NCBI RefSeq assembly: GCF_007859315.1
Contig: NZ_VOHA01000039.1
Coordinates: 1 to 40,644 of the forward strand
Length of the DNA: 40,644 bases
Direction of reading: 5' to 3'
Origin: Reyranella sp. CPCC 100927
GTDB taxonomy: Bacteria > Pseudomonadota > Alphaproteobacteria > Reyranellales > Reyranellaceae
Shown: positions 7,300 to 35,459 of the stretch, piece by piece
How positions within the stretch are numbered: position 1 is the first letter of the stretch
Layout: each line of letters opens with the position of its first letter
Position numbers and translations under genes: made by a program
The notes under the pieces: model-generated
The model's input: the letters and a program-made list of their open reading frames with translations, nothing else
Database searches by the model: none
Told to the model about the DNA's origin: nothing

Positions 7300-7338
7300 C
7301 GCACGCATCCCGTCCGATCGAACGAAGCGGAGGAAGCC

Positions 7339-21110: not shown

Positions 21111-21163
21111 CGAGACAGTATGCACCGGAGTTGGCCACCGGCCTTCAGCCGACCCTTGGGCGA

Positions 21164-21345: not shown

Positions 21346-21371
21346 CCGAGGTTCGCTCTTGTCCGCGCAGG

Positions 21372-21388
21372 TGGCGTCCCCGAGAGGA
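21372..21388. other. attL core of the 13.5-kb integrated element
   Basis: TGGCGTCCCCGAGAGGA is an exact 17-bp copy of the sequence at 34892-34908, where it spans the 3' end of tRNA-Arg(CCT). The copy here is not part of a tRNA: sequence on both sides differs. A truncated copy of a tRNA 3' end next to a tyrosine integrase gene is the hallmark of the far attachment site of a tRNA-targeted element. Confidence 0.85.
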
Positions 21389-21449
21389 CGGGGCGTGGTT
21401 CGACCGTCGGATGCCAATAATTCTTGAATTATGGGGTTTGATCGGGTTG

Positions 21450-21476
21450 CGTGTACTCCACATTCGTACTCCACAA
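21450..21476 (+). other. Integrase arm-type site, left copy
   Basis: This 27-bp sequence contains the unit GTACTCCACA twice in tandem. It matches 34804-34830 at 25 of 27 positions, in the same orientation. Each copy lies exactly 62 bp inside the nearest 17-bp core, as expected for arm-type integrase binding sites in the two attachment sites. Confidence 0.65.
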
Positions 21477-21488
21477 TCCGAGATACAG

Positions 21489-22808
21489 ATGGCCACTCAC
21501 CTACGCCTTCAGCGCAACGTTTGGTTCGCGCGGTTCCGCGTTCCTGCTGACGTGCAAGACGCTTTCGAAGGCAAGACCGAAGTCTACCGGACCACGGGAG
21601 CGAGCGACAAAGCGCTTGCCAAGCTGCGGGCCGCGAAAATTGTGGCGGACTTGAAGGCGAAGGTGATGGAGGCGCGGGGGCGGGCCGGATCGATTGAAGC
21701 CGAGGCACTGTGGTGGCGCGAGCAGATCAGACAAGACGACGTCGGTGTGATGCATGACGCGTTGGCGCGGCACGTTGCCGACCGCTACGTGAGGGGCGGA
21801 CACCAACGGTTCAACAGAGTAGGCGTTCTGGCACCCTATGACGGCAACGAACTGGCCGCCATTGTGGACCTTGGTGGCCCCAAGGCAGCTACTTTCGTTG
21901 CCATCGCGACGGGCAAGGCGTCTCCACTGGCGCCATTCATCGCCGCTCACATCGCGAAACGCCGCGACGCGGTCGAGGAGAAGACCGCCGACATGGAGAA
22001 GTCCGACCTTGAGAAGCTGATTGATGTGTTGCCCACTCTCGACAAGCTGACACGCTCGGGTGTGGCTGACTGGGTACAGGGGCAGATTGATGCCGGCCTT
22101 AAGCCCGACGCTATCAAGCGCAAGCTGTCCGGGTTTCGTCGCTTCTGGGAGTTTCTACAGGGGCGTGGCGAGGTGTCGAAGGATGCGTCGTCGCCGTTCG
22201 AAAAAGTCAAGGTCCCCGAGCGGGCCAAGGACGCAGCACGGGGAAGCTATCTATCGTTTTCGCCCGCGGAAGTCGCGAGGCTCTACGGCGCGGCGAAGAA
22301 GGATCGACAGCTTGCCGACCTGATAATGCTGGCCAGCTACACGGGCGCGCGCATTGAGGAGCTTTGCGCGTTATCCGCTTCTGCGGTCCTTCAGAACACC
22401 TTCCGAATCACTGACGCCAAGACCGAGGCGGGCAACCGAGAGGTGCCGATACACGACAATCTGAAGGGACTGGTGAAGCGGCTCGTGAAAGAGAGCAAGG
22501 ATGGGTTCCTGCTGTCGGGCCTGACCGTGAACAAGTATGGGGATCGCTCGAATGCCGTTGGTAAACGCTTCGGATATCTCAAGAAGGCCTATGGGTTCGG
22601 CGAGAGGCATGTCTTCCACAGCATCCGCAAGTGCGTTGTGACGCAATTCGACCGCGCCGACGTGCTGGAGAACGTCGCAGCGGACGTCGTCGGGCACGAC
22701 AAACCTCGGATCACCTACGGGCTATACTCGGGCGGATCATCGCTGGCGCAGAGGAGGGCGGCAGTGGCAGCGCTGTCGTATCCCGGTGCGCTGGGGAAGG
22801 TCAGCTAG
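21489..22808 (+). CDS. int: Tyrosine site-specific recombinase (phage-type integrase)
   Basis: A 439-residue integrase. ATG 21489 (MATHLRLQRNVWFARFRVPA) is chosen because the DUF6538-like opening is typical of this family; the much longer in-frame upstream extension covers attachment-site DNA. The N-terminal arm-binding and SAM-like regions are followed by the catalytic domain with SYTGARIEELCAL (first arginine), HVFHSIRK (H-x-x-R), VVGHDKPRITYGLYSGG (second histidine and the nucleophilic tyrosine). All catalytic residues are present, so it should be active. It reads away from attL and presumably inserts the element into tRNA-Arg(CCT). Confidence 0.93.
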   Translation: MATHLRLQRNVWFARFRVPADVQDAFEGKTEVYRTTGASDKALAKLRAAKIVADLKAKVMEARGRAGSIEAEALWWREQIRQDDVGVMHDALARHVADRYVRGGHQRFNRVGVLAPYDGNELAAIVDLGGPKAATFVAIATGKASPLAPFIAAHIAKRRDAVEEKTADMEKSDLEKLIDVLPTLDKLTRSGVADWVQGQIDAGLKPDAIKRKLSGFRRFWEFLQGRGEVSKDASSPFEKVKVPERAKDAARGSYLSFSPAEVARLYGAAKKDRQLADLIMLASYTGARIEELCALSASAVLQNTFRITDAKTEAGNREVPIHDNLKGLVKRLVKESKDGFLLSGLTVNKYGDRSNAVGKRFGYLKKAYGFGERHVFHSIRKCVVTQFDRADVLENVAADVVGHDKPRITYGLYSGGSSLAQRRAAVAALSYPGALGKVS

Positions 22809-22811
22809 GAG

Positions 22812-22863
22812 CCCCGCTGAAGGTGTTCCACTCGATCCGCAAGGCCCGGTTGCACGGCGGCTG
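22812..22863 (+). pseudogene. Possible residue of a second integrase C-terminus
   Basis: Immediately after int, the reading APLKVFHSIRKARLHGG-stop repeats the VFHSIRK active-site segment of the integrase above but in a different context and with different codons. It may be the scar of an older, related integrase gene. It is only 17 codons, so chance cannot be excluded. Confidence 0.25.
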
Positions 22864-22937
22864 ACGGCGTGGCTGTGGCTCAGCACGCCATCGAGGATTG
22901 CTAGGCCATGAGAAGGCCGGCGAGTCGTTCGGATAGG

Positions 22938-24140
22938 TCAGGGGGCGCGGTCAGCCCGCCATTTGTCGATTGCCGCCGGTAGCTCTCTGAGCGCGGGTAC
23001 TATCCGGTTGGCACGGTGTGGCACTGCGTCCTTAAGCAGGGCTGAAAAGCGCCGATCGCCGCGCCATAAGTCCACATGAGGAAGATAAAACGCGTGGATC
23101 AGATCGCCGCCGAAGCTTCGTTCGATCTTGGCCTCGGAACCAGTCAGCCCCATGATTTGACTGATATAGGCGTGCATCACGGCGTTGACGATTTCGCAAA
23201 CTGGCACCTCAGCCGCGAAGCTGGCATCACACAAAAGCGTATCTCGCAAGGCCGCATCAACGCCAAACTCGGCAGTGTCGTCGTTTGCCATATGTAGCAC
23301 TTTGCGCGCCATCTCTCCTGCCCTGTCGACAAGCGTTGCTTGGAATTGGTCGCGAGCCAGATCGAGGTGCATGAACGGCTGGAGCTGGTCACGTAGCGCT
23401 ATAAAGCTGTCTTGAAAAGTGCGGCCAGTCTTGCCAATCCAATCAGGCAAGGAACGGTCGGACTCCATCTTTTCGAAGTAAGTCTCGACGAACTTTACCG
23501 GTTCGGCGATTGCAGTAAACAGTCGCCGGCTCGCTTCCTCAGGCGTGATCGCCCCGCCCATCAGGGCAACAAGCGAGCCAGAAATCGCGTTGAGTGGTAG
23601 GCCGTATTTTTCCGCCATCTTCGGCGCCGCGAGTTGCGCCATTTTGGCGAGATCGATCTTGCGCGCTTTCCTAGCAATCTGGCGCCTGAGTGCGCGAGAT
23701 GGGAGGGTAGCAAGCTCGGCGTCGACCGTTTGACGCCATGTGGAACGCACATCGGCGAAACTGTCCGAGACGTTGGGATACCAGTACCGATCCGGCGAAA
23801 GGATGCGAGTATCTTGGGCGTTAGGAATGGCACCGCGCCTTATCGCGGCCTCGGCAATCTCCGCCGCGATAAGGCGTGTGGGATAGGCGAGCGCCCAGGC
23901 ACCGCACAGCCGCTCAACTGCCTCGGCTTTCCTAATCGTGGTGTCGCGATAGTCGGCGTCATATTGCAGCAACTCGCCAAGGATTGGCATCGAAACAGCA
24001 AAGATTGCGTCGCCTGAGTGCTTGCGTGCCACGAGAGCCGTGAAGAGCGCTTCGGTGGCACCGTCAGATTTGCCCCGTAGCACATCACCGAATCGCGAAT
24101 AGTCCTGAGTATCCAGATAGACAATAGGAGGAGAAGACAT
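22938..24140 (-). CDS. PIN-like domain protein of unknown role
   Basis: A 400-residue protein. The N-terminus PIVYLDTQDYSRFGD resembles the first acidic strand of PIN-fold nucleases. The C-terminal part, GGDLIHAFYLPHVDLWRGDRRFSALL at about residues 345-370, matches the closing PIN pattern with its D-x-x-H-A-x-Y-L-P-x-V-D and D-x-x-F acidic sites. The central 250 residues are helical and unfamiliar, so the protein is much larger than a VapC toxin. Codon use is less GC-biased than the chromosome around it. It has no obvious antitoxin partner. A cargo nuclease, possibly antiviral, is an inference from fold and position next to the integrase. Confidence 0.6.
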   Translation of the reverse strand: MSSPPIVYLDTQDYSRFGDVLRGKSDGATEALFTALVARKHSGDAIFAVSMPILGELLQYDADYRDTTIRKAEAVERLCGAWALAYPTRLIAAEIAEAAIRRGAIPNAQDTRILSPDRYWYPNVSDSFADVRSTWRQTVDAELATLPSRALRRQIARKARKIDLAKMAQLAAPKMAEKYGLPLNAISGSLVALMGGAITPEEASRRLFTAIAEPVKFVETYFEKMESDRSLPDWIGKTGRTFQDSFIALRDQLQPFMHLDLARDQFQATLVDRAGEMARKVLHMANDDTAEFGVDAALRDTLLCDASFAAEVPVCEIVNAVMHAYISQIMGLTGSEAKIERSFGGDLIHAFYLPHVDLWRGDRRFSALLKDAVPHRANRIVPALRELPAAIDKWRADRAP

Positions 24141-24449
24141 GACGACTCTCGCGATCCGGCACTGACCTAGATGATCTCCTGCACGGCAGGAGGGGTTGCC
24201 GGCATTGACGCACTAGCTATGCACTGTCCGCCCCCCACACAAGCCCCGCGGCGTGTACCGACAGGCGGACGGGGACACTGGACGTCGCGTGGTGGCATGG
24301 CGGGGAGACCGCGGGGGTTGCCTTCGAGTGGCCCGCGGAGGGGCGTTGAGGCCGCCCTAGAGCGCTCGCTTTCGTGAGCGCGAGTCGAAGTGATTAGCCT
24401 CGCTCCAAGCTCAACAGTGCGGAGCCTTCTGTTCCGATCCGCGGTGCTT
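24141..24449. other. Non-coding gap within the element
   Basis: These 309 bp hold no convincing gene. A stem GCGCTC...GAGCGC at 24362-24381 is the only clear structure. Promoter activity for the leftward PIN-like gene should lie at its left end, but no consensus hexamers stand out. Confidence 0.4.
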
Positions 24450-25016
24450 TCATCGTGTACCCGTTTCCTTGCCTTCTGCCTCATCCCATTCCTTCTCGAT
24501 CTTGGCGGCCAGTTCGAACAACCGCTTCGGTATCTCCTCCTCGTCCTCCATGAAGTGGAAGGGCACCTCTGCCGTCGCCTTGGCCAGGGCGGGATGGACC
24601 TCCTCGCCGCCGTCGCGCGTGCGCACCCATCGCGCAGCTTCCGGCCGCCTCCAGTAGCCCATCAGGGTCGTGCATCGAGCGAGCAAGGCGTGCCCCTTAT
24701 CGGGATCGTCCTTGAACGCGTCGAGCAGCGCCATGGCTGCCCGGTTGAGAGGGATATCCTTGAGCGTGAGGTAGCCTGGCTCCGGGTCGGGCAGCGGCTT
24801 TGTCGGTGCGGTGCCGACGTACGCCGCGTGCAGCAGGTGGTTCGCGAAGCCAAGCTCCTCGTAGGTCACGGACGGAATGATCGAGCGCAGTGAGCGCGGG
24901 GACCTTTTAGCCTTCGGCTTCTTCGTCACGGGGCGCCTATCCTGTTTGCCCCAAGGGTACGACAGCGGCTCCCCCGTTGGTGGAAAATGTCTGGGGGTAT
25001 CCTCGCGAGCCGTCAT
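24450..25016 (-). CDS. Hypothetical protein of the element
   Basis: Up to 188 residues, hydrophilic, with no domain I recognise. It has a basic segment (TKKPKAKRSPRSLRS) then an acidic C-terminus (FMEDEEEIPKRLFELAAKIEKEWDE), suggestive of a nucleic-acid or protein adaptor. The ATG at 25016 would make the protein read through the repeat at 24976-25010. GTG 24929, with an AGGA 10 bases upstream, gives 159 residues and is a good alternative. It is divergent from the HNH gene. Confidence 0.5.
   Translation of the reverse strand: MTAREDTPRHFPPTGEPLSYPWGKQDRRPVTKKPKAKRSPRSLRSIIPSVTYEELGFANHLLHAAYVGTAPTKPLPDPEPGYLTLKDIPLNRAAMALLDAFKDDPDKGHALLARCTTLMGYWRRPEAARWVRTRDGGEEVHPALAKATAEVPFHFMEDEEEIPKRLFELAAKIEKEWDEAEGKETGTR
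24976..25010 (+). repeat. Imperfect direct repeat, left copy, flanking the HNH gene
   Basis: This 35-bp stretch begins GTTGGTGGAAAATGTC and continues through GGGTATCC. It matches 25711-25745 at about 30 of 36 aligned positions, same orientation. The two copies bracket the HNH nuclease gene. Confidence 0.6.
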
Positions 25017-25114
25017 TGGCGCCCCCCTCTGAGAGGCCCATAAGACACCTCTTCCGGCCGCCCACCCTGCCCATTAAGGTTGGCCCGGATCGTCCCCTAC
25101 GGAGGGATTGTAGC

Positions 25115-25687
25115 GTGCGCGTCATCAAGATTTTGGACCCGGAAACGGGAGAGGAGCTGGACCTCGAACCCAACGCTGCGGTCTACGAAGAGATTGGCGA
25201 GGGTGAGAAGTGCGAGCACCAGACGACTGAGATCCGGCGGCGACAGGTGAAGGGCGGCGGCTTCCAGCACCGATACCAATGCCTTCAATGCGGCGAGGCA
25301 ATAGGCACGGCTGTCTCGAAGGCTGTGGCAGGTGCCGCCCCCGACTTTGACGAACATCTAAGTGCCAAAACCAAGGCTGACCGGGAAAAACGCCGCGAAG
25401 AGATCATGCTCCACCACGCCCGTGCTCAGCGCGAGAGGACGTCAGTATTTTGGCAGCAGTACGAGGCTTACCGCGAGACGCCGGCGTGGAAGACCCGGCG
25501 CGACAAGGTCTTGGCGAGGGCCGGCGGGATATGCGAGGGCTGTGGTTTTCGACGGGCGACCCAAGCCCACCACCGTTCATACGAGCATCTCGGACACGAA
25601 TTTCTTTTCGAACTGGTGGCGGTTTGCGACACATGCCACGACCGGCTCCACGGTGAGAGCGAGGAACCCGGCGAGATCGCTTTTTGA
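25115..25687 (+). CDS. HNH endonuclease-like zinc protein
   Basis: A 190-residue protein. GTG 25115 is chosen because GGAGGG sits 8 bases upstream and the reading MRVIKILDPETGEELDLEPN is natural; an earlier in-frame ATG at 24977 lies in the repeat. An N-terminal zinc ribbon (C-x-H at KCEHQT, then CLQCGE) is followed by a helical linker and a C-terminal HNH module: ICEGCGFRRATQAHHRSYEHLG and LVAVCDTCHDRLHGE, with two CxxC pairs and the catalytic HH. It is probably a metal-dependent DNA nuclease. In phages such genes often sit by packaging sites; here it lies between direct repeats. Confidence 0.8.
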   Translation: MRVIKILDPETGEELDLEPNAAVYEEIGEGEKCEHQTTEIRRRQVKGGGFQHRYQCLQCGEAIGTAVSKAVAGAAPDFDEHLSAKTKADREKRREEIMLHHARAQRERTSVFWQQYEAYRETPAWKTRRDKVLARAGGICEGCGFRRATQAHHRSYEHLGHEFLFELVAVCDTCHDRLHGESEEPGEIAF

Positions 25688-25710
25688 GTTGTGAAACGGG
25701 TGCCACCAAA

Positions 25711-25745
25711 GTTGGTGCAAAAATGTCCGAGGGTATCCCGTGAGC
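25711..25745 (+). repeat. Imperfect direct repeat, right copy, flanking the HNH gene
   Basis: It begins GTTGGTGCAAAAATGTCC and continues GAGGGTATCC. It starts 24 bp after the HNH stop codon and pairs with the copy at 24976-25010. The similarity fades into a C-rich run in both copies. Confidence 0.6.
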
Positions 25746-25964
25746 GGCCGGCCGCCGGTCCCCCCGTGTGCCTTGCTGCCGGGGTCTAGGCGCGAGACGC
25801 GATGCCGAGGGGCGGGAGGGCACCGCGCTGGACTGCGCCCTTTCGCAAGTCTACCGCGGGGCCTCCTGCAGGGCCGTAGAGGGGCCGTACAGAGCCACGC
25901 GTCACAGCCGCCATCCGAGGCCAGCCGGGGCCGCAATCGCTCTGTACGAGTCCCGCAGCGAATC

Positions 25965-26099
25965 CTAGGCCTTCCTGCTGGTCACGATCTGCAGCCGGCC
26001 CAGGTAGAACCACCACGACCCAGGCGCGACGCCGCGGACGGGCAGCGACCAGACCGACCACGACTTAGGTACCCATTGAACGTGAACTTCGACAGGCAT
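25965..26099 (-). CDS. Possible small protein (44 aa)
   Basis: This is too short for ordinary gene finding but reads MPVEVHVQWVPKSWSVWSLP and on to WWFYLGRLQIVTSRKA, rich in Trp and hydrophobic strands with no low-complexity bias. AAGGA lies 8 bases before the ATG. The surrounding 600-bp gap otherwise lacks a gene. No homolog is recognised. Confidence 0.4.
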   Translation of the reverse strand: MPVEVHVQWVPKSWSVWSLPVRGVAPGSWWFYLGRLQIVTSRKA

Positions 26100-26311
26100 C
26101 TTACAGTCCTTCCGCGCACCATGCGCTGCCCCTCAAATGCCCTGAAGTCGACCTGAAGAGGAGCGCGAAGAAGTCATCTCGCGGGCGCAAATATCGCCAG
26201 AAATGCATAGGTCGACACAGCCCGTGTCACAGACTGCGGCAAGTCTCAAGCGCCACGGGACTTCACAGTAGACTATTCATCTTCTTGCGGGGATTGAGGG
26301 GCGATCAGGGG
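26100..26311. other. Non-coding region before the recombinase site
   Basis: I see no plausible gene here on either strand; the open frames have arginine- and proline-rich composition typical of shadows. The DNA becomes more AT-rich near 26190-26290, which may hold the recombinase promoter. Confidence 0.4.
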
Positions 26312-26412
26312 TGTTCAGAAACCCCGTCGAAAACAGCGCCTCGAAACCCCAGCAAATGCGGCCTCGCCGACCTGCCCCTCAGAGTGTTCCGAAACCTATT
26401 GTTTTCTGAACA
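26312..26412. promoter_or_regulatory. Resolvase-type recombination/operator site
   Basis: Half-sites share TGTTCnGAAA: one at 26312-26321 (TGTTCAGAAA) and an inverted pair at 26385-26412 (TGTTCCGAAACC-TATT-GTTTTCTGAACA; 10 of 12 arm bases agree). The inverted pair spans 28 bp, the size of a serine-resolvase dimer site. It lies 43 bp upstream of the serine recombinase gene, as res sites usually do. Confidence 0.55.
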
Positions 26413-26455
26413 ATGCTCCGGTACAAGATCGCTCGCCGAGGAGGCGAGGGCTGTC

Positions 26456-27055
26456 ATGACGAAGAACAGAACATCGATCTACCTGCGCGTGAGCACGGAC
26501 GGTCAGACGGTCGAGAATCAGCGCCGCGACCTTACCGCCTTCGCCGAACTGAAGGGCTGGCCTATCGTGGCCACCTACGAGGATGCCGGCATCAGTGGCG
26601 CCAAGGGTCGAGAGCACCGGCCCGGCCTCGACGCTCTACTGAAGGATGCCCGTAAGCGCCGCTTCGACCGAGTCCTGTTCTGGTCAGTGGACCGGCTGGG
26701 CCGCAGCACAGCGACCGTCACGCAGCACATGGCGGACTTCGCGGGCGCGGGTGTGGCGCAGTTCTACTTCAAGGAATCCATGGACACCGCGACAGCGCAT
26801 GGCCGGGCGATGCTTGAGATGGCAGCCGTGTTCGGGACGCTGGAACGGGAGATGATCCGAGAGCGGGTTAAGGCCGGTATCGATCGTGTCCGCGCGACCG
26901 GCAAGACCAAGAGCGGCAAGCCGATCGGGCGGCCTAAGGTAGGAGGCGACGTCGAGGCCAAGGTCGTCGAGCTACGGGCCGCGGGCATGGGTATCCGGGC
27001 AATCGCCGCTGAGGTGGGCTGCGGCGTTGGGACGGTGCTGAGGATCACCGCCTAG
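26456..27055 (+). CDS. Serine site-specific recombinase (resolvase/invertase family)
   Basis: A 199-residue protein. ATG 26456 follows GAGGCGAGGG and yields MTKNRTSIYLRVSTDGQTVE, with the nucleophilic serine in RVSTDGQ. Conserved pieces follow: YEDAGISGAKGREHRPGLDALL, VLFWSVDRLGRS (second catalytic arginine), MLEMAAVFGTLEREMIRERVKAGI, and the C-terminal helix-turn-helix GIRAIAAEVGCGVGTVLRI. Size is that of resolvases and invertases rather than large phage serine integrases. A likely dimer site lies just upstream. It may resolve element multimers or flip DNA. Confidence 0.93.
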   Translation: MTKNRTSIYLRVSTDGQTVENQRRDLTAFAELKGWPIVATYEDAGISGAKGREHRPGLDALLKDARKRRFDRVLFWSVDRLGRSTATVTQHMADFAGAGVAQFYFKESMDTATAHGRAMLEMAAVFGTLEREMIRERVKAGIDRVRATGKTKSGKPIGRPKVGGDVEAKVVELRAAGMGIRAIAAEVGCGVGTVLRITA

Positions 27056-27102
27056 GGCCGCTAGGAGCGGGTCCAAACGGTTAGGGAAAGTGGTGAGCGG
27101 GG

Positions 27103-27579
27103 ATGATGTACGCAATCGGCTTGCTCCTGTTGGGGCTCGTGATCTGGTTCGTTGGGAAGCGGCAAGACGAGGACCTACGCTACCCAGACCACGCAGAGCG
27201 GAAACGAGTGGACGCGATCGATGCCATGGCCCGCAAGGCGGAGGCGCAATATCAGAAGCGGGCCACGAAGATGGGATGGACAGCGCCCACGGCAGAAGAT
27301 GACCGCAAGTGGCACGAAGAGTCGAAGCGCAGAGCGATGGCGAGGGCCATAGTGATGACCGAAGCCGGCCTCGACCTTTCCGACGCTCATCCGGGCCCCA
27401 CAGGCACCGTCATCAACACCAAGGCGGACCGCGACGCTTACGAGAAGGCACGCGTCGCGGCCGAGAAAGCGGCCATAGCGAAGGTCATAGCGGAGGCTGA
27501 AGCCACGGCTAAGGCTGAGGCAACATCCCTAGACGAGCAACTTCAGCGCCGCTTAGCGAGCGCCCCAGGGCCGCGCTAG
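27103..27579 (+). CDS. Membrane-anchored coiled-coil hypothetical protein
   Basis: A 158-residue protein with one N-terminal membrane helix (MMYAIGLLLLGLVIWFVGKR). A long charged alpha-helical region rich in Ala, Glu and Lys follows, likely a coiled coil at about 110-150. There is no recognised family. It could be a spanin- or scaffold-like protein. The 9-mer CGCTAGGAG occurs on both sides of the gene (27059 and 27593). Confidence 0.5.
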   Translation: MMYAIGLLLLGLVIWFVGKRQDEDLRYPDHAERKRVDAIDAMARKAEAQYQKRATKMGWTAPTAEDDRKWHEESKRRAMARAIVMTEAGLDLSDAHPGPTGTVINTKADRDAYEKARVAAEKAAIAKVIAEAEATAKAEATSLDEQLQRRLASAPGPR

Positions 27580-27810
27580 GCGCGTCTAGCGACGCTAGGA
27601 GGCCGCTGACGCTAAGGCCTTGATGCGACTCGGAAAGTCCCGAAAGGACACCATAAGACGGACCCAGGTTATGCGGCCGTGGGGATCAATCCCGGCCCAT
27701 GTAACTAGGTAGAGGGGCACCGACTCACCCTCATCGCCACAGGGACAAGCCTCTCTGTGTCTTTACCTGGGGGCACGGGTCCATACCCTCTTCAAAGGAT
27801 CAATCCCAAC
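27580..27810. other. Intergenic region with short repeats; possible replication origin or leader
   Basis: This 231-bp gap contains the palindrome CTAGCG-A-CGCTAG (27586-27598), several CGCTAG-type words, the inverted GGGAT-CA-ATCCC (27682-27693) and a second GGATCAATCCC (27798-27808) just before the next start codon. Clustered short repeats upstream of replication-type genes are typical of origins, but no true iteron array is present. Confidence 0.3.
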
Positions 27811-28554
27811 ATGACATCACGTACCTGCGCTTGCGCCGGGTGCGACTCGCCGACTGCGTCTCGGTTCGCCCGCTACTGTCAGCGCCACAAGAACCATATG
27901 GTCCGGCATGGCCATCCAGAGCAGCGGCCGGTCAGTTCCACCGAGTTGAAGCCGTACCTGAAGACCGTCGAGACACTCCGCCGACGTGACCCTTCAGCAC
28001 CCCTTTGGCCGCTCCTCTCGTCCCGCTGGGAGGCCATCGCGAAGGCCGCTGAGAGTGTAGCCAACGACTCGACCCATCGGCCCAGCCGGGAAGCCGCAAA
28101 GCTGGTGCTGGGGATCGCCCGCGATGCGGACGCGGCAAAGGTGGTCGACACCGCGCTCGCTTGTTTCATGTACCGCGAGGCCCAGCCGAACACCTTTGCT
28201 AGTGAGAATGCCTTCGACTTCCAGATGGTCCGCAGGGTCCGCAACCTAGCGCCGACGAACCGGGGCCAATGGGTCAATCCGAACACCGGAAAGACCCACT
28301 ACGCCTACCCATTCATCAGCCCGAGGGCCATGGCAGTGATCGCTAAGACCATTCGGGACAATTTCAGCCTTCCAGCTTTTAAGCTCACTCGCCGCCTCGA
28401 AGCCGAGAAGGACGCGAAGGCGCAGGAAAGGGCGGCCGTGAGCGAGGCCATCGACAGTCTCGATATCACCCCGAAGCCAAAGCGCATCACGACGCTGGGC
28501 GCCCGCGAGGTTGCGACCCGCGAGATCGAGGCCAAGGAAATCAGCATCCCCTAA
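27811..28554 (+). CDS. Zinc-finger hypothetical protein, helicase partner
   Basis: A 247-residue protein. The start at 27811 gives MTSRTCACAGCDSPTASRFA and YCQRHKNHMVRHGHP, a Cys/His cluster at residues 6-40 that should bind zinc. The remainder is helical, with a conserved-looking aromatic segment WVNPNTGKTHYAYPFISP near residue 175. The next gene (helicase) starts 19 bp downstream, so the two are one transcription unit and perhaps a replication module. The family was not recognised. Confidence 0.6.
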   Translation: MTSRTCACAGCDSPTASRFARYCQRHKNHMVRHGHPEQRPVSSTELKPYLKTVETLRRRDPSAPLWPLLSSRWEAIAKAAESVANDSTHRPSREAAKLVLGIARDADAAKVVDTALACFMYREAQPNTFASENAFDFQMVRRVRNLAPTNRGQWVNPNTGKTHYAYPFISPRAMAVIAKTIRDNFSLPAFKLTRRLEAEKDAKAQERAAVSEAIDSLDITPKPKRITTLGAREVATREIEAKEISIP

Positions 28555-28573
28555 ACAGAGAGACACCACCGAC

Positions 28574-30598
28574 ATGGACAAGCTTCTGGAGGAGGCGCGC
28601 GCCGCGAGCGTCATTCGCGACAACCCAGCCTACGCCGCCGTCCGCCGTCTCTCGGATCGCGCCCACAGCATCGTCACGAAACGCTTGATCGACTACGGCA
28701 GCATCCCCAGCGGGGCCCATTCACAGGCCTTGATGGTCACTGCCGGCGGACTGGCGTGGCAGCTGTACGCCATCTCACCGCGACACCGCGCGCGCCGCGC
28801 CTACCCGCTGCCGTGCGGGACGGGAAAGACTCAGAGCGTCGTTGCCTTCGCCCAGGCCCTCTATGAGATCGGTCTCGAAGACGGCCGGCCGTGGTGCGGC
28901 AAGTCCTTTCTGGTCGCTCAGACCCAGATAGACAGCCTGATCGCCCTTCGCCGGGACATGATCGCAGCCGGCATCCCGGAGGACGACATTGGCTTGATCT
29001 ACTCAGGAGAGGAACGGGAAGTCCCACCGACCACCGACAACAGCCGCCGTCCGGTGCTGCTGGTCGCTCACGCCAAGATCAAGCGGACGGGGGACAGCGC
29101 CGGGAAGTTAGAGGAGGTGACGCAGTACCGGCCCCGGCCGTTAAAGGCCCTAAGTACCCTTTCTATAGACTTGCGGCCTCTAACTCGACCGCGGGACCTA
29201 CTCATCTGGGACGAGGTCCTTCTCAGCACACAGGCCCATTCCATCGCCACAGAGGACGCCAGTGCGCTTGCCGCTGGCGCCTCTGCGCGATGCGAGGAAG
29301 CCCCTGCCCCGTTCCGTAAGGAGTGCGCGGACTACCTCGCTCGCTGTTGGTCGCTGATCAAGATCGAACGGGAACGCCAACTCGCCGGACATGAGCCGTC
29401 GAAGGTGACACTTCCGTCCATCCCGGAGGACCTTGAATTGCCCTACATCCAGGCTTTCAAGAAGATGGCCAAGGGCGACACCAACGCTTTCGCGACGCTG
29501 GTCGAGATGAACGGCATGGACGCTCGCTTCACCTTCTTGGTCGAGCCGGGCAAGGACCGTAGAGGCGGTATGGTGTCGTTTGAGGTGTCGGTCCCAGACG
29601 CGTTCGACAACATCGCCATCCTCGACGCCGGCCACGCCGTCAATCGACTGGTCAGGCTCGACAGTCGGATAGGCCTGGCCATCGGCTTCGACAAGCTTGG
29701 TGTCGTCAAATCGTACGACAACGTCGAGGTGCATTTCGCCAACGGTAGCTCCGGCCGCAGTCCAACGGAGAAGGATTGGGACTCCATGGCCGAGAAGCAA
29801 TCCGTCAGCGAGATTATCGCAACGGTGAAGGCCATCCCTGCCGAGGAACACGTCCTGATATGGACCTTCAAGCACAGCGGGTACTGGCGCGCGCCGGATC
29901 TGCCGACTCTGATCAAGAAGCGGCTTGCCGCGGCGGGTGTCGACGTCGAGGCCAAGATCAACGGCAGAGACCGAATTAGCGTCGCGACGTTCGGTCGACA
30001 TATCGGCTTCAACGATTGGTCGCGCGTCGAGAACGTGATCTTCGCTGGCGTCCTGCAGCGGGACCGCTTCGACCTGCTATCGTCATCCATCGCGCAAGTC
30101 CGCGACATCATGGCGGACACTGACAGGCTCATCCCGGTAACGGAGGTGTCCCTCGGCGAAGTCGCGGGGACCCTCTATCAGGCCATCTCGCGCGGTCGCT
30201 GCCGGGACACTGTCGATGGACAGGCGAAGCCCATGAAGGTGTGGCTTCGACACCACGACAGGAAGATCAGAGAGGAACTGAACGCGCTCCTACCGAGCGC
30301 CCAATGGTCCCGCTGGTATGGCTCAGAAGCCCGCGGCGGGAAGATCGACGGCGTTGCAGAGAAGGTCGAAGCGGCATTGTCGAGCCTACCCCAGGACGTC
30401 GCGTCCATTTCCGTCCGCAAGTTCAAGGAGCAATGCGGACTGAAGGACGCCCCTAACAAGACGTTCCAGAAGGCATGGGCAACGCTCGCCGAACGGGTTG
30501 AATGGACGCTGTCGGGTCGATCATTCGTCCGGCTCGAACATGCCGGAGCGATGGCGGCGCCGCGCCTTGGCTTCAAGGACGAGACCGCGGCCGCCTAG
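28574..30598 (+). CDS. SF2-type helicase/ATPase of the element
   Basis: A 674-residue ATPase starting at ATG 28574. Walker A is PLPCGTGKTQS at about residues 78-88, and the DExx-like motif is LLIWDEVLLS at about 215. A helicase C-terminal half shows LIWTFKHSGYW, ATFGRHIGFNDWSRVENVIFAG (motif V-like) and LYQAISRGRCRD (motif VI, Q-x-x-x-R-G-R). A winged-helix-like tail (SISVRKFKEQCGLKDAPNKT) may bind DNA. It is probably the replicative or origin-opening motor of the element, or an anti-host effector. It is not a recognised Cas3, RecG or primase; no primase or polymerase domain is visible. Confidence 0.75.
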   Translation: MDKLLEEARAASVIRDNPAYAAVRRLSDRAHSIVTKRLIDYGSIPSGAHSQALMVTAGGLAWQLYAISPRHRARRAYPLPCGTGKTQSVVAFAQALYEIGLEDGRPWCGKSFLVAQTQIDSLIALRRDMIAAGIPEDDIGLIYSGEEREVPPTTDNSRRPVLLVAHAKIKRTGDSAGKLEEVTQYRPRPLKALSTLSIDLRPLTRPRDLLIWDEVLLSTQAHSIATEDASALAAGASARCEEAPAPFRKECADYLARCWSLIKIERERQLAGHEPSKVTLPSIPEDLELPYIQAFKKMAKGDTNAFATLVEMNGMDARFTFLVEPGKDRRGGMVSFEVSVPDAFDNIAILDAGHAVNRLVRLDSRIGLAIGFDKLGVVKSYDNVEVHFANGSSGRSPTEKDWDSMAEKQSVSEIIATVKAIPAEEHVLIWTFKHSGYWRAPDLPTLIKKRLAAAGVDVEAKINGRDRISVATFGRHIGFNDWSRVENVIFAGVLQRDRFDLLSSSIAQVRDIMADTDRLIPVTEVSLGEVAGTLYQAISRGRCRDTVDGQAKPMKVWLRHHDRKIREELNALLPSAQWSRWYGSEARGGKIDGVAEKVEAALSSLPQDVASISVRKFKEQCGLKDAPNKTFQKAWATLAERVEWTLSGRSFVRLEHAGAMAAPRLGFKDETAAA

Positions 30599-30626
30599 GC
30601 CTTTGCACCGCGCCTACCGCCACCCT

Positions 30627-30649
30627 CTCCGTGATTCCCGTTCACGGAG
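30627..30649 (+). terminator. Stem-loop after the helicase gene
   Basis: CTCCGTGA-TTCCCGT-TCACGGAG forms an 8-bp perfect stem 28 bp after the helicase stop codon. The tail (TCTTCC) is only weakly T-rich, so termination may be partial. Confidence 0.5.
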
Positions 30650-30698
30650 TCTTCCGCCTATCCTATACTACCGCCCACACACACAGAAGACTTGATCC

Positions 30699-30908
30699 AT
30701 GAACCCAATCGAGCGCCTCGCCGACACCCGCCTCGGCTACGCTGTGATCCTCATCGCGGCCGTTGTCGGCTTCTACTTCTTCGCCGACTGGCTCGCTTCC
30801 ATCTTCCCGCACCCGCGCTCGGCGCTCATCCCGCCCGAATGGGTCGTTTACGGCTCGACCGCCTTCTTAGCCTACGCTGCAGCGCGCGCGTGGTGGAACG
30901 ACCGATGA
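30699..30908 (+). CDS. Small two-helix membrane protein (holin-like)
   Basis: A 69-residue protein with two hydrophobic helices (AVILIAAVVGFYFFADWLASIF and WVVYGSTAFLAYAAARAWW) joined by a short polar turn, and a charged C-terminus. Size and topology match small phage holins, and it lies between replication- and morphogenesis-type genes, but no sequence signature proves that role. Confidence 0.5.
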   Translation: MNPIERLADTRLGYAVILIAAVVGFYFFADWLASIFPHPRSALIPPEWVVYGSTAFLAYAAARAWWNDR

Positions 30909-31183
30909 AGTCCCGGTCCGCATCAGAAGTTTCGGTACCGAAACTTTTCTCGGCCGCCGCGTAGTCCTTCTCGCCCCACTACCGCCAACCTCAAAGGCAC
31001 CGCCATCGTGCGGGGCTTTCTCATTTCAGCCCTCCGCCAGCGGCGCTTTAGCCGCGCCCCTCGCGGCGCCCACGGGCCCCGGCCACCGCGCCGGGTTCTC
31101 CATTTTGAAGGCACCCCGGCGCGAGCCTTGCGCGGCCCGGTGCCGTTTGGTGTGCAGGGACTCCCTTTCTACGAGATCACGAG
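30909..31183 (+). other. Intergenic region with a 20-bp perfect palindrome and terminator-like stem
   Basis: AAGTTTCGGTACCGAAACTT at 30927-30946 is a perfect palindrome followed by TTCT, which could be a repressor operator or an intrinsic terminator. A second stem (AAAGGCACCGC against GCGGGGCTTT) lies near 31000-31012. I see no gene in this stretch. Confidence 0.5.
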
Positions 31184-31735
31184 ATGTGTGAACCAACAAC
31201 CATGGCACTAGCCACGTTTGCCGTTGGCGCAGCGTCGGCTGGTGCAAGCTACACCGGGCAGCAGTCCGCGGCCAAAGCACAGAACAAGCAATACGCCGCC
31301 AACGCGGAGTCAGCCCGCCGCGCGGCTTCTGAGAGCTACGCCTCGCTGCAACAGCGCATCGATCAAGAGCGCGCTGCTACTATCGACGAGCAGTTTCAGA
31401 CCGCCATCGACGCCAAGCGGGCCGGTGCCACCGCGACCGTTGCGGCCGGCGAGGCCGGTGTCAACGGCCACTCCATTGACGCTCTTCTGGCCGACTACAA
31501 GGCACAGCAGGGGCGCTTCAATGCCAACACGCAGCAGAACCTTAGGTCCACTGAAGGGCAGCTTCGGCAAGAGATGAAGGGCGTCCAGGCTCAGGCAGAG
31601 ACGCGCATCAACTCGGTCCCGAGAGGTCAGAAGCCGTCGTTCATTGATGCGGGGCTACGCATCATCGGCGCTGGTATCGGCGCGTACAGCGATCGGGAGC
31701 GGTGGATTCGCGGCAATCCTGAAAGCCGGGGCTAG
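31184..31735 (+). CDS. Phage internal virion protein, T7 gp14-like
   Basis: A 183-residue protein. It starts MCEPTTMALATFAVGAASAG and continues with QQSAAKAQNKQYAANAE, then a long helix with GVNGHSIDALLADY, closely following the plan of the T7-type inner core protein gp14 of podoviruses (a short MC(D/E)P start, a Gly/Ala-rich hydrophobic segment and an AAKAQN coiled helix). In T7-like phages this protein forms part of the DNA ejection channel in the outer membrane. No other core or capsid gene surrounds it, which is unusual for a prophage. Confidence 0.72.
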   Translation: MCEPTTMALATFAVGAASAGASYTGQQSAAKAQNKQYAANAESARRAASESYASLQQRIDQERAATIDEQFQTAIDAKRAGATATVAAGEAGVNGHSIDALLADYKAQQGRFNANTQQNLRSTEGQLRQEMKGVQAQAETRINSVPRGQKPSFIDAGLRIIGAGIGAYSDRERWIRGNPESRG

Positions 31736-31783
31736 GTTCGGCCATCATCAAGCGCTCTCTCAGCGCTCAACACCACTGAGAAG

Positions 31784-31801
31784 GCCCGCCATCGCGCGGG
31801 C
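31784..31801 (+). terminator. Terminator-like stem after the virion protein gene
   Basis: GCCCGC-CATCGC-GCGGGC is a 6-bp GC stem followed by TGTCGTCTTTCT. It lies 49 bp after the stop codon. It is similar in style to the stem near 31000. Confidence 0.5.
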
Positions 31802-31912
31802 TGTCGTCTTTCTGGGAAAGCCTCGAACGCCATGCGCACGCACGCAACCTCAACTACAGCCATCCCGTCGCCCGCTTGGGCTCACCTCTCCCTCATCTAC
31901 GGAATCACCACC

Positions 31913-32278
31913 ATGACCTATCCCCTGCCGTCGGGGGGCAGCCAAGTATCAGTAGTACCGCCGACCAAAGCCGCTCAGCAATTCAGCGTCCAAGACCTCG
32001 CTGATCTGCTGATCGAGTACATCCCGTGGCCGACGCCCCGTTGTGCACGCGCCTACGCTCGCACCGTCTTGATCGGCTGTGACCTGGGACGCTGGAACTG
32101 CAAGTCACGGGCGGCCGCGATGATCCCCACGGAGATCGCCATCAAGAATGACTGGGCGTTGCCGTTGGCCGCGAAGGTCATGCTAACAGCGGTGGGCCTG
32201 GAGGTCTTCTTGGCACACGCCGCGAAGGCTCTCGCCACGCGTGGACCGATCGAGTCGCGTTCGATCAAGGTCGCGTAG
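31913..32278 (+). CDS. Hypothetical phage-type protein
   Basis: A 121-residue protein starting at ATG 31913 (MTYPLPSGGSQVSVVPPTKA); an in-frame ATG at 31832 would add 27 residues of poor quality. It contains a possible membrane-near segment (LPLAAKVMLTAVGLEVFLAHAAKAL) at the C-terminus. It ends 2 bp before the terminase-like gene, so they are co-translated. I do not recognise the family. Confidence 0.5.
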   Translation: MTYPLPSGGSQVSVVPPTKAAQQFSVQDLADLLIEYIPWPTPRCARAYARTVLIGCDLGRWNCKSRAAAMIPTEIAIKNDWALPLAAKVMLTAVGLEVFLAHAAKALATRGPIESRSIKVA

Positions 32279-32280
32279 TC

Positions 32281-32643
32281 ATGGCCGCATCGAAAGCCAC
32301 TCTGAACAAGTTAGCCAACCTCCTACTCGCTGAATTCATCGACGTTCTCGAGAAGGGTGAGGAGGTAGTCGACTTTGATCGCGATGGCGGAGCGATCACC
32401 CGGTACCGCCGTCGGCCGACCGCTCCCATGCTCCAGACGATTCGCCAGGCCCTGAAGGACTCTGGCACTGATCTGGGCGGCACCGATGCGGTCGGGGCCT
32501 TCAACAAAGGCGGCGACAGGATCAGCGGCTTTGCAATCCCGTTCGAGGTCCCGTTCCTGTGCGAGAGCGATGAAGGCGACGCGGAGATGATCCCAGCCGC
32601 CAACGCAGACGACGACACCGCAGACGAGGACAACGAACGATAA
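32281..32643 (+). CDS. Small terminase subunit-like protein (T7 gp18/DNA maturase A type)
   Basis: A 120-residue protein. The N-terminal helix (TLNKLANLLLAEFIDVLEKGEE) is followed by PTAPMLQTIRQALKDSGTDLG, which strongly resembles the PSAAVLNAVRQFLKDNGI signature of T7-like small terminases. The C-terminus is acidic (DDDTADEDNE), as in gp18. In phages this subunit recognises viral DNA for the packaging motor. No large terminase gene is present in the element, so if active it must work with another phage's motor. Confidence 0.65.
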   Translation: MAASKATLNKLANLLLAEFIDVLEKGEEVVDFDRDGGAITRYRRRPTAPMLQTIRQALKDSGTDLGGTDAVGAFNKGGDRISGFAIPFEVPFLCESDEGDAEMIPAANADDDTADEDNER

Positions 32644-32808
32644 CTATGGAATCTGAACACTGAAGAGTCTGGCTGGACCACCACACCGCCTTCAGTGAGG
32701 CTCACAGCGACGGGCCTAGAGCGGCTCGCCGGATTCTTGCTGGCCTCGTGGAAGCGCTCGCGCGCCCCTGAATAGGTGGCGGTATGAGCGATCGGCGTTG
32801 CTGAGCGC

Positions 32809-33201
32809 ATGGGCTTGGTCCGCCGCGGTCCGTACGCCTATGAGGCCGTCGGCGCGCCCCCTCAGCAGCAGCAAAGTGCGCCTCACGACGCTCAGCAAAG
32901 CCCACAAGGGCGGGAGCAGCAGCCCGAGGAAGCCCCCATCGACGCCCCGAAGGTGGTTCTCGATAGTGCCACCGACAAAGCCATCGGCGTCACGTACGAC
33001 AAGGCACCCGACGCCTTCAACGCCGTGATGCGGGAGGCCCGACTGCACGGCAGTGACTTCGACCCGAACAACTCACGAGCCGTCGAAGCTCTGGCGAGCC
33101 GTATAGGTGCCGAGCCGGGCGAGATCGCGCAGCTGGCGACGTGGCGGAAGCCGACACCCGCATGGGCCAAACTGGCCGAGCGGACTACAGCAAGCCTATA
33201 G
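32809..33201 (+). CDS. Hypothetical protein of the element
   Basis: A 130-residue protein with a Gln/Pro-rich low-complexity segment (APPQQQQSAPHDAQQSPQGR) followed by an ordered-looking region (AFNAVMREARLHGSDFDPNN, ALASRIGAEPGEIAQLA). The ATG has a weak ribosome binding site. Its last 60 bases overlap the next reading frame. The family is unknown; it might be a scaffold or core-type fragment. Confidence 0.45.
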   Translation: MGLVRRGPYAYEAVGAPPQQQQSAPHDAQQSPQGREQQPEEAPIDAPKVVLDSATDKAIGVTYDKAPDAFNAVMREARLHGSDFDPNNSRAVEALASRIGAEPGEIAQLATWRKPTPAWAKLAERTTASL

Positions 33202-33380
33202 CCACGTTCCTCGCCGAGCTTGGTCGCAATGACCCGGCGCGCGTTATCGCGATGGCCGCCGAAGCCGGACTACAGGCGCGCAAGGCGGATGGCGACGTGA
33301 TCGTCTCGATACCCGGCCGGGGCACCATGCGCTGGGCCGTGGCCGTGCGTCAGAAGCTGATCCCGCTGCGAGTTGGGTGA
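33141..33380 (+). CDS. Hypothetical small protein overlapping the previous gene
   Basis: 79 residues from GTG 33141, or 72 from ATG 33162 (MGQTGRADYSKPIATFLAEL). It continues DPARVIAMAAEAGLQARKAD and ends at 33380, just before a strong terminator. It overlaps the preceding gene by up to 61 bp. A single frameshift could join the two into one protein of about 190 residues, but each frame looks natural on its own. Confidence 0.45.
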   Translation: MAEADTRMGQTGRADYSKPIATFLAELGRNDPARVIAMAAEAGLQARKADGDVIVSIPGRGTMRWAVAVRQKLIPLRVG

Positions 33381-33416
33381 GAGGGGTGCGTACACAGGAC
33401 GTGCCTTAGGTGGGGT

Positions 33417-33449
33417 GCCCGGTTTCCCTCAGGGGAGGCCGGGCGTTTT
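33417..33449 (+). terminator. Strong intrinsic terminator ending the phage-type gene block
   Basis: GCCCGG at 33417-33422 pairs with CCGGGC at 33439-33444, with an inner TTCCC/GGGGA extension, followed by GTTTTC. It closes the rightward block of phage-like genes before the AlbA_2 gene. Confidence 0.85.
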
Positions 33450-33595
33450 CATCCTTCAGTTTGCCTTGATGGTCCTCTTGTTCCCACATGAGCAGGTTGT
33501 GGCCGCCGTTGGTATGACACATGCTGACCGGGTATTGGCTGGCACCGTCCATCGGTAGCCTCTCGATGCTGGGCGGAAGACGTTAGGATGCACAG

Positions 33596-34771
33596 ATGAT
33601 CGATGTACCTCTCAGCAAGATAGATCTTGCGACGATTGACGCCCTGATCAGCAATGGCGTCACAGAGAGCCAGACGCTGGATTTCAAGGCGGACCTTTCA
33701 CTCACCACACCAGACGACAAGAAGGAATTCCTCAAGGACGTGTCGGCGTTTGCAAACGCTGCCGGAGGTGATCTTGTGCTCGGCGTGACTCAGGATAAGG
33801 CAACGGGCGCGGCTAATGGACGACCGGGAATTGCCATACCAAAGTTCGATAGCTGGATGCAGACATTGGAAAACCTGCTTCATAGCAGCATTGACCCGCG
33901 TCTACCTGCCGTTGCTTTTCATCCGATCCCTTTAGGTGGTGATCTGTTTGTCGTTGTTCTTCGCATCCGACAGAGTTGGTATGGACCGCACAGAGTTGAG
34001 TTAGGACGCAGCAAGTTCTACGGCCGGCACTCAGCGGGCGTGTTTGAGATGAACGTCACCCAGTTGCGGAATGCGTTCACCCTCTCCGACACTTTGACCA
34101 AGCGGGTACAGGATTTCCGCGATGAGCGCTTGGCACGAATCGTGTCAAATGCCGGTGCAATCGGTCTTAAGGAGGGAGCTAAACTAGTTGTCCATGCGTG
34201 TCCCATCGCCTCCTTCGCCGGACAAATCCAGCTTTCGCAGTCGACATTGCAAAGTGACGGCGCGTTGATGACACCGCTGGGCAGTTCTGGAACAAATTTC
34301 TCGAATGTTCTCGAAGGCTTTATGACGTACAGCGGGCGAGAGGATGATCCTACCTCGCGGGCGTACACGCTCAGCCTTCGAAATGGGGTCGTTGAGTTCG
34401 TGACGACATTCACGCCAACACAGACGGAGAAGGGGACCATCCAGCGGTACCTTTGGCTGGGCGATGTGGAGGCAGGAATGATTTCTGCTTTCGACAAGTT
34501 CATGAAGTATTACAAGTTTGTGGGCATTACGCCGCCGCTCTACGCATTCGTTTCGATCGTGGACGCGCTTGGATACGATGTGCGGAGAGATTCGTACGGT
34601 CGACCACAGCCGCTTCGGCGACACGATCTCATGTTGCCGGAGGTGGAAGTTACGGACGAGAGCTTTGACTGTTATCGCGAACTGAAGCCGACCTGCGACA
34701 TCCTATGGAACGCTTTCGGGTACTCGGGCTCACCCAACTTTCGTTCCGGCGCGTGGAGGAGGCCAACCTAG
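33596..34771 (+). CDS. AlbA_2 (Schlafen AlbA-like) domain protein
   Basis: A 391-residue protein. ATG 33596 has AGGA 7 bases upstream. The N-terminal 150 residues carry the AlbA_2/divergent AAA-4 pattern: ESQTLDFKADLS, KKEFLKDVSAFANAAGGDLVLGV, and a late FYGRHSAGVFEMN strand. The C-terminal 240 residues are unassigned. Base composition is clearly lower in GC than the chromosome. AlbA_2 proteins occur in regulators and in several bacterial antiviral loci. Its solitary position beside attR, after a strong terminator, fits a cargo gene. Confidence 0.78.
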   Translation: MIDVPLSKIDLATIDALISNGVTESQTLDFKADLSLTTPDDKKEFLKDVSAFANAAGGDLVLGVTQDKATGAANGRPGIAIPKFDSWMQTLENLLHSSIDPRLPAVAFHPIPLGGDLFVVVLRIRQSWYGPHRVELGRSKFYGRHSAGVFEMNVTQLRNAFTLSDTLTKRVQDFRDERLARIVSNAGAIGLKEGAKLVVHACPIASFAGQIQLSQSTLQSDGALMTPLGSSGTNFSNVLEGFMTYSGREDDPTSRAYTLSLRNGVVEFVTTFTPTQTEKGTIQRYLWLGDVEAGMISAFDKFMKYYKFVGITPPLYAFVSIVDALGYDVRRDSYGRPQPLRRHDLMLPEVEVTDESFDCYRELKPTCDILWNAFGYSGSPNFRSGAWRRPT

Positions 34772-34803
34772 CTTGTGGCTTGAACCGGGATCAAACGAGG
34801 CCA

Positions 34804-34830
34804 CGCGTACTCCACATACGTACTCCACAA
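34804..34830 (+). other. Integrase arm-type site, right copy
   Basis: Two tandem GTACTCCACA units, 25 of 27 positions equal to 21450-21476, lying 62 bp inside the right attachment core. Same spacing and orientation as the left copy. Confidence 0.65.
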
Positions 34831-34891
34831 GATTAATAATGCAGCTAATCCGATGCCGATATTTGCTGCGTTTTTCAGGGAATGCAGGGGC

Positions 34892-34908
34892 TGGCGTCCC
34901 CGAGAGGA
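34892..34908. other. attR core, overlapping the tRNA-Arg 3' end
   Basis: TGGCGTCCCCGAGAGGA repeats the attL core at 21372. Its part from 34895 on is the acceptor 3' strand and part of the T arm of tRNA-Arg(CCT), so insertion of the element leaves a complete tRNA gene. Confidence 0.85.
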
Positions 34909-34968
34909 TTCGAACCTCCGGCCTACGGTTTAGGAAACCGCCGCTCTATCCGGCTGAGCTACGGGGAC
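34895..34968 (-). tRNA. tRNA-Arg(CCT)
   Basis: Complete cloverleaf of 74 nt on the minus strand. The acceptor GTCCCCG pairs with CGGGGAC (discriminator G). The D arm is GCTC/GAGC. The anticodon stem GCGGT/ACCGT holds the loop TTCCTAA (anticodon CCT, reading AGG). The T arm is GGAGG-TTCGAAT-CCTCT. CCA is not encoded. This is the integration target of the 13.5-kb element and also of an older insertion on its 5' side. Confidence 0.95.
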
Positions 34969-35455: not shown

Positions 35456-35459
35456 AGCC

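Follow-up and report, generated by a model that had tools for sequence, protein, structure and literature searches.

We analysed a 40,644-nucleotide stretch of Reyranella sp. CPCC 100927 (contig NZ_VOHA01000039.1, positions 1 to 40,644; the window), for which a reading made from the letters alone (the sequence-only reading) had proposed an integrated element resembling a phage satellite. The element, ~13.5 kb long (21372-34908), is integrated at a tRNA-Arg(CCT) gene (34892..34968, - strand) and is genuine, as confirmed by its attachment cores, arm-type sites, integrase and gene for a T7 gp14-type protein. An exact 17-bp core, TGGCGTCCCCGAGAGGA, is present at 21372-21388 and 34892-34908 (+ strand), and its second copy forms the 3´ end of the tRNA gene; when the left region (20801-23000) was dinucleotide-shuffled 1000 times, the words it had in common with the tRNA reached at most 14. 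The arm-type site GTACTCCACA starts at 21453, 21466, 34807 and 34820, with no further copy on either strand of the window, and a repeat search showed it to be arranged as a pair with 13-bp spacing inside each element end (21453..21475 and 34807..34829, + strand). Both the cores and the paired arm-type sites of the sequence-only reading were located, and the tRNA, the cores and the integrase frame are all intact.

Pfam and PHROG scans of 15 proteins of the element gave clear matches to a DUF6538 integrase, a serine recombinase, an HNH nuclease, T7 gp14 and Schlafen/AlbA_2 (genes are on the + strand unless noted). The tyrosine integrase (21489..22808) is complete, as had been claimed, with the DUF6538 N-terminal domain followed by the catalytic domain (Pfam, PHROG). 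The serine recombinase (26456..27055; Pfam, module profile) is of the resolvase/invertase type and constitutes module F4 of the family described below. The gp14-type internal virion (ejection) protein of 183 amino acids (aa; 31184..31735, PF24072, 6.4e-35) has an intact frame. No protein of the 15 had a Pfam match at E up to 0.1 to a capsid, portal, large terminase (TerL) or tail protein, to AlpA or to a primase, in agreement with the sequence-only reading, which had also recognised no Stl regulator. The same reading had called the 674-aa product of 28574..30598 a replication-type helicase. Its homologues and a moderate structure model (mean pLDDT, the predicted local distance difference, 64.7; pTM, the predicted template modelling score, 0.53), closest to CasDinG and XPD, support a superfamily 2 (SF2) ATPase/helicase of the DinG/XPD type; the replication part is unproven, the protein having no Pfam or PHROG match and no relative among 50,697 phage records.

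A family of elements with shared modules

Relatives that have several modules in common with it (among the integrase, the serine recombinase, the SF2 helicase and the internal virion gene) were found in nine other Reyranellaceae genomes and elsewhere in the window's own genome, as well as in a second family of Alphaproteobacteria and in Eleftheria, a betaproteobacterium (genomes, loci and contigs carry handles beginning with G, L and C). A search of 76 genomes from the order located the ATPase in six, with a second copy-bearing element in the window's own genome, and its profile matched 4 of 385 genomes of the class. The gp14 profile matched 12 of 75 family genomes. Nine of the 12, the window included, hold elements of the window's kind (gp14 is interrupted in G018, and the G036 and G070 elements are cut by contig ends), the others being a T7-like prophage (G023), a phage-like stretch (G051) and a 5.3-kb contig (G064). 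In 387 class genomes, the four gp14 matches were the window, G068, an element in another family (G284) and a T7-like phage region (G383). Three plasmid records, from Eleftheria terrae, Azospirillum and Ruegeria, also matched the ATPase. The E. terrae element has the family layout, an annotated integrase and a near-full-length gp16-type protein (phrog_342, 6.8e-113); the Azospirillum and Ruegeria islands had no match to any of 11 T7-like virion profiles.

Profiles of the modules, built from the elements, were run on 19 loci. The serine recombinase was detected in nine of the 12 elements with internal virion genes; it was missed in L023 and L050, which are truncated at contig ends, and in L025, where it was detected by BLAST only (7073-7747). 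Module F9 was present in seven of the 12, counting the two-frame version in the window, and F10 in six. The helicase is missing in L051, L052, L053 and L068, which keep the serine recombinase, integrase (for L051, by Pfam on L072) and gp14, and was not seen in the cut L050. The window integrase was not scored by these profiles because its longest open reading frame (ORF) starts outside the element. The second element in the window's genome (L020 5289-19637, C45) is divergent, lies in tRNA-Asn, and encodes a gp15-like protein and a NucC-like nuclease. Defence-type cargo near the element ends differs by member, comprising AlbA_2/Schlafen, AbiJ-like, HEPN and NucC-like proteins; in the window it is the Schlafen/AlbA_2 gene (33596..34771; Pfam), with a similar protein at the tRNA end of the G024 element.

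Two tests set beforehand concerned conserved gene order elsewhere and a full phage version of the element. The modules recur at other tRNA genes and in other bacteria, and no full phage version was found, with no portal, capsid, tail or TerL match in 20 loci; a deletion derivative is therefore disfavoured.

The arm-site arrangement was sought in seven other elements. Six of them (L020, L024, L025, L056, L051 and an element in G075) have a left-end word that is repeated 13-14 bp apart and common to the right end, giving a similar pair at at least one end; the right-end pair was not seen in L024 or L056, and the L025 words are GT repeats. L068 has one shared 13-bp word only and no pair. In G075, of the same genus, the window's 17-bp core occurs twice around a different 8.7-kb element at tRNA-Arg (L083 7607-16345, G075:C57), whose integrase is related to that of the window (66% DNA identity over 476 aligned columns). 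The empty tRNA-Arg site sought in close genomes was not found in the genus, the G075 site being occupied, and the left flank of the window element had no match in the three other genus genomes.

Several observations on the wider set stand apart. Homologous proteins are encoded near the integrase of an alphaproteobacterial and a betaproteobacterial element (L025 4742-5659 and L056 8711-9625), assigned to AbiJ_NTD4/DUF7014 by Pfam in L056 and to PDC-S32 by PADLOC in both. The same ATPase family occurs in other alphaproteobacterial islands with no virion match (L047, L057, L058, L048 and L065), of which L047, L057 and L058 have tRNA-gene repeats; type I restriction-modification genes are annotated in L057, and two of these have homologues in L047. 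A further relative (L021 8237-17814, G073) has a large serine integrase and interrupts a Mg-chelatase (ChlI/comM-type) gene.

Virion genes, element length and possible helpers

We searched the ORFs of 20 loci with the 11 T7-like profiles: portal, scaffold, capsid, tail tubular A and B, gp13, gp14, gp15, gp16, fibre (built from two sequences) and TerL (from one). Twelve loci matched, and only with gp13 (4), gp14 (10), gp15 (1) and gp16 (1); portal, scaffold, capsid, both tail tubular proteins, fibre and TerL gave no match in the 20 loci at E up to 0.05. The other eight loci (L021, L062, L064, L047, L048, L057, L058 and L065) had no virion match. Five of the 12 positive loci (L050-L053, L068) had originally been found through a gp14 search; an internal virion gene is present in seven of the eight elements that were found through the helicase and have the shared module set (window, L020-L025, L056). 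The single internal virion protein gene noted in the sequence-only reading thus turns out to be a family signature.

The G023 T7-like prophage, which has a complete virion block (L070, L049 and L071, G023:C56) and whose ends were not found by repeat search, was compared with 1615 element ORFs, now including the outer parts of two elements (L072, L073) additional to the 20-locus run. Of its 66 called genes, gp13, gp14 and the integrase matched, together with a few small genes: a gene of 81 aa upstream of portal and one of 79 aa downstream, each with matches in the G027 and G036 elements; a gene of 196 aa preceding TerL, in the G019 element; and, weakly (3.2e-4), a 76-aa gene in G027. The prophage portal, scaffold, capsid, tail, fibre and TerL genes matched none of these ORFs, and the prophage had no gene matching the family helicase or serine recombinase. 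The 81-aa gene resembles gp6.7 by position alone; gp6.7 and gp14 of T7 are small proteins that bridge the portal and the gp15 core (PMC11784390). The 196-aa gene was considered as a small terminase (TerS) and rejected, having no PHROG match and not being TerS-like in appearance.

Against solved internal virion or ejection proteins, the window gp14 matched 28sd_C (7.8e-5) and, by profile, 9vvp_J (1.8e-6) and, weakly, 8vb2_M (0.069). In T7, gp14 is the first protein ejected and makes an outer-membrane pore (PMC8954989). The nearest phage gp14s are from Autographiviridae of Rhizobium and Mesorhizobium (seven records representing five distinct podophages of 40.5-45.7 kb), one of which, TRX32-1, is recorded as lysogen-induced. 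On a gp14 tree of 21 rows, the satellite label needs five changes, at least two of them forced by well-supported branches. The G027 and G036 proteins cluster with that of the G023 prophage (support 99/96), to which the G027 gp14 is 76% identical. The ratio of nonsynonymous to synonymous substitution (dN/dS) was 0.21 between two satellite gp14s of this group (at a dS of ~1.8, near saturation), 0.22 between the G027 satellite and the prophage, and 0.27 between the window and phage Lo5R7ANS; one pair yielded no value.

Seven core-bearing elements (that is, with internal-core genes) have both ends mapped and span 13.5-14.8 kb (mean 14,279 bp, standard deviation (SD) 446): the window element (13,520 bp, tRNA-Arg(CCT)), the second element of its genome (14,331 bp, tRNA-Asn), and those of G027 (14,757 bp, tRNA-Glu), G019 (14,525 bp, a 21-bp repeat with no tRNA found), Eleftheria (14,676 bp, tRNA-Ala), G024 (14,274 bp, tRNA-Ser) and G284 (13,867 bp, tRNA-Ser). 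The other five of the twelve core-bearing loci (L022, L023, L050, L052 and L053) are without mapped ends; no attachment repeats were detected around the G035 element, and G068 showed a 13-bp word only. Virion-gene-free ATPase islands are shorter (n = 5, 6.9-12.8 kb, mean 8,963 bp, SD 2,465; rank test, p = 0.0025), with the ends of the G073 comM insertion estimated from the interrupted gene and L048, L062 and L065 lacking mapped ends. The five phages with the nearest gp14 average 42,962 bp, giving an element/phage ratio of 0.332. P4 and SaPIs (Staphylococcus pathogenicity islands), which are small-capsid satellites, have one-third of the genome length of their helpers. The one-third ratio would fit packaging either in a small capsid or as three copies in a normal head.

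For the G027 element, the right flank was found in 39 of 75 family genomes, and five of the 17 such loci compared carry the attachment core (G027, G054, G023, G069 and G068). G054, G023 and G069 have the same left flank (91-95%), an intact tRNA-Glu and the right flank (90%), and therefore represent empty sites; in G068 the core is present, but no matching left flank or tRNA was found within 1.5 kb. The T7-like tail tubular B profile matched two of the 75 family genomes, G023 and G007 (L197, G007:C3), neither of which had an element in our searches.

Interpretation and comparison with known satellites

We conclude that the window element is probably an integrated phage satellite, belonging to a family of ~14-kb elements parasitic on T7-like (Autographiviridae-type) podophages. 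This conclusion builds on insertion into a tRNA gene, accompanied by core and arm sites, on the element's own integrase, serine recombinase and SF2 helicase, and on a T7-type internal virion gene with no other recognised virion or TerL gene, a set that recurs at near-constant length. The family is apparently undescribed, and to judge from sequence its only recognised virion genes are those of internal-core (ejectosome) proteins. Since only inner, DNA-injection proteins are carried, the rest of the particle is suggested to come from a helper phage. On infection by, or induction of, a T7-like helper, the integrase would excise the element, the helicase and recombinase would support replication and multimer handling, and element DNA would enter particles made by the helper. 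The satellite gp14 (in relatives, gp13 with gp14, or a gp15-like or gp16-like protein) would be incorporated into the portal-bound internal core instead of, or in competition with, the helper's version, such that satellite particles might eject their DNA properly, helper particles might be disadvantaged, or both. The cargo at the element ends would protect the host from competing phages.

To our knowledge, no known satellite hijacks a phage at the ejection or internal-core layer; known satellites reshape capsids, redirect terminases or build their own heads. We tentatively raise the possibility, for which the odds seem slightly short of even, that this family attacks the ejection machinery. 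Each lineage would have its own form of one or more core layers (gp13/gp14 plus small portal-side proteins, gp15 or gp16), acquired from different phages. Swapped into helper particles, these could decide which genome is packaged, in small or multimer-filled heads, or which cells can be injected. If true, carriage of ejection or internal-core genes only would be a new hijacking strategy; these would be the first satellites tied to T7-like phages within the literature searched; natural replacements would make the role of the T7 core in assembly and host entry testable; and the presence of gp14-type genes outside phages, in nine of 12 gp14-positive family genomes, would be accounted for. No earlier satellite with internal virion or ejection proteins or with a T7-like helper was found in the literature searched, a scope that excluded most subscription papers.

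A number of observations weigh against a T7-linked satellite. In the window element, no small terminase, capsid-size gene, AlpA or primase was recognised, and module F9 is split over two frames. No T7-like tail gene was found in the window's genome with the tail tubular B profile, and thus a helper would need to infect from outside. The virome searches were also unfavourable: no helicase relative was found in IMG/VR (0 of 14 and 0 of 161 candidate stretches), the G027 gp14 gave 0 of 18 in the viral collection, and none of the 80 contigs examined out of 154 viral contigs with the serine recombinase had a gp13-gp16 match. The window gp14 matches eight viral contigs, of which L012, L014, L018 and L019 are phages by their surroundings. 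The gp15 match in the second element of the window's genome is weak (4.9e-6), the clustering of labels on the gp14 tree is not significant (57 of 500 shuffles were as low), three tree rows are long-branched, and two gp14 pairs from the other satellite group had higher dN/dS values (0.64 and 0.42). The size argument is based on seven elements, compared with phages that infect other hosts, and leaves a small capsid and a trimer undistinguished. Finally, excision, induction and packaging are inferred, as is mobilisation by a phage. The sequence-only reading of a satellite unlike PICIs (phage-inducible chromosomal islands), P4 and cf-PICIs (capsid-forming PICIs) in layout is supported.

Some of these points would suit other explanations. 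The lack of satellite contigs in the virome searches, the defence-type cargo, and the occurrence of helicase relatives in islands bearing type I restriction genes and lacking any virion match would all agree with a genomic or defence island that has its own integrase and is itself unpackaged, and that turns gp14 against related phages by poisoning ejection or preventing their entry. We regard this as unlikely, given that members carry different core proteins, including a near-full-length gp16-type and a gp15-like protein, and that the lengths of core-bearing elements are tight and one-third of a phage whereas core-free islands are shorter and scattered. The element could alternatively be a decayed T7-like prophage in which deletion left an integrase, a helicase and one virion gene. 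That gp13 and gp14 are phage-type genes, that the G027 gp14 is so close to its counterpart in G023, a prophage whose virion block is complete, and that F9 is in two frames in the window are all compatible with decay, but other elements that have no further virion gene repeat both the non-virion modules and the length, the G023 prophage has no match to the family helicase or serine recombinase, the T7-like tail profile is found in two of 75 genomes against 12 of 75 for gp14, and the tRNA, cores and integrase frame are intact. We consider decay quite improbable. A satellite of some other phage type, for example a siphophage, with gp14 as incidental cargo acquired by recombination, would agree with the absence of an identified helper for the window's genome. 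Such an origin is highly improbable in view of the recurrence of gp13-, gp14-, gp15- and gp16-type genes, probably from more than one phage source, and virion genes of other phage types were not seen in the 15 window proteins scanned.

The window element shows general features of satellites: it is integrated, with its own integrase, an incomplete particle gene set and a helper-related virion gene. PICIs, including SaPIs, measure ~15 kb, roughly a third of their helper's genome, and the window element is similar in length and ratio, but no AlpA/Stl, primase or supported TerS was found among its 15 scanned proteins, and it carries a T7-type core protein instead. It resembles P4-like satellites in being integrated, having its own replication gene and reaching one third of helper length, and differs in having no match to a P4-type primase-helicase, Psu or Sid in the Pfam and PHROG scans, in which P4 proteins were not compared directly. 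PICMIs (phage-inducible chromosomal minimalist islands of Vibrio) adjoin fis and depend on AlpA and a primase (PMC10803314). The window element is like them in its integration, its own integrase, the lack of a detected capsid-size gene, possible multimer packaging and anti-phage cargo; unlike them, it lies at tRNA-Arg and its family at tRNA genes, it has no AlpA or primase match, and ejection proteins are encoded. The cf-PICIs are described as making their own capsids, with phage-related virion genes of more than one origin (PMC11389934). Carriage of phage-related virion genes of more than one origin is shared with the window family, which differs in having no capsid, portal or terminase match.

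The helper of EcCIMP1, vB_EcoP_Kapi1, is a podophage by name, EcCIMP1 itself being a PICI; VEIMEs (virion-encapsidated integrative mobile elements) and tycheposons, compared by description, have a tRNA site and a tyrosine recombinase in common in kind only; and the Charybdis elements differ from the window family. The closest full-phage homologues of gp13 and gp14 are in the G023 prophage and the rhizobial Autographiviridae, which have a complete virion block (records of 40-46 kb) but no match to the family helicase. By the features tested, the window element is not a PICI, cf-PICI, P4 or PICMI, and it probably works like a phage satellite.

Remaining genes and flanking sequence

The other genes of the element comprise a 400-aa cargo gene of unassigned function (22938..24140, - strand; no significant Pfam, PHROG or PADLOC match), a 188-aa protein (24450..25016, - strand; phrog_19137, 1.7e-5), the HNH nuclease-like protein, with an uncertain start (24977..25687; PHROG, 1.5e-8), which bears out the earlier assignment, and proteins of 158 aa (27103..27579), 69 aa (30699..30908) and 148 aa (31832..32278) covered by the Pfam and PHROG scans. 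Module profiles identified F10, which adjoins the helicase (27757..28554), and F9 (32809..33380), in two overlapping frames (32809-33201 and 33141-33380). The 120-aa protein encoded at 32281..32643 had been taken for a small terminase, a reading that was not supported: the TerS family phrog_891 matched at only E = 0.055, and no relative was found in IMG/VR or the phage records. A motif scan for a small terminase in the window gave nothing usable. The HNH protein matches a TerS-labelled PHROG (1.3e-4), but across the HNH region, and this match ranks under eight HNH families.

Just outside the element lies a dispersed repeat of ~100-200 bp with a strong inverted repeat (21184-21313 and 40052-40220). 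The left-flank query matched 19 places in this genome at E ≤ 1e-20, its own place counted, and none in the three other genus genomes. Beyond the tRNA, 35147-35806 encodes a helix-turn-helix (HTH) antitoxin-like protein (MqsA/HTH_3) and a RelE-like toxin. About 1 kb downstream of tRNA-Arg, the segment 35944-36029 matches the same part of the G075 tRNA-Arg region as does the real tRNA (86% over 87 columns), and may be left over from an earlier integration event around these toxin and antitoxin genes.

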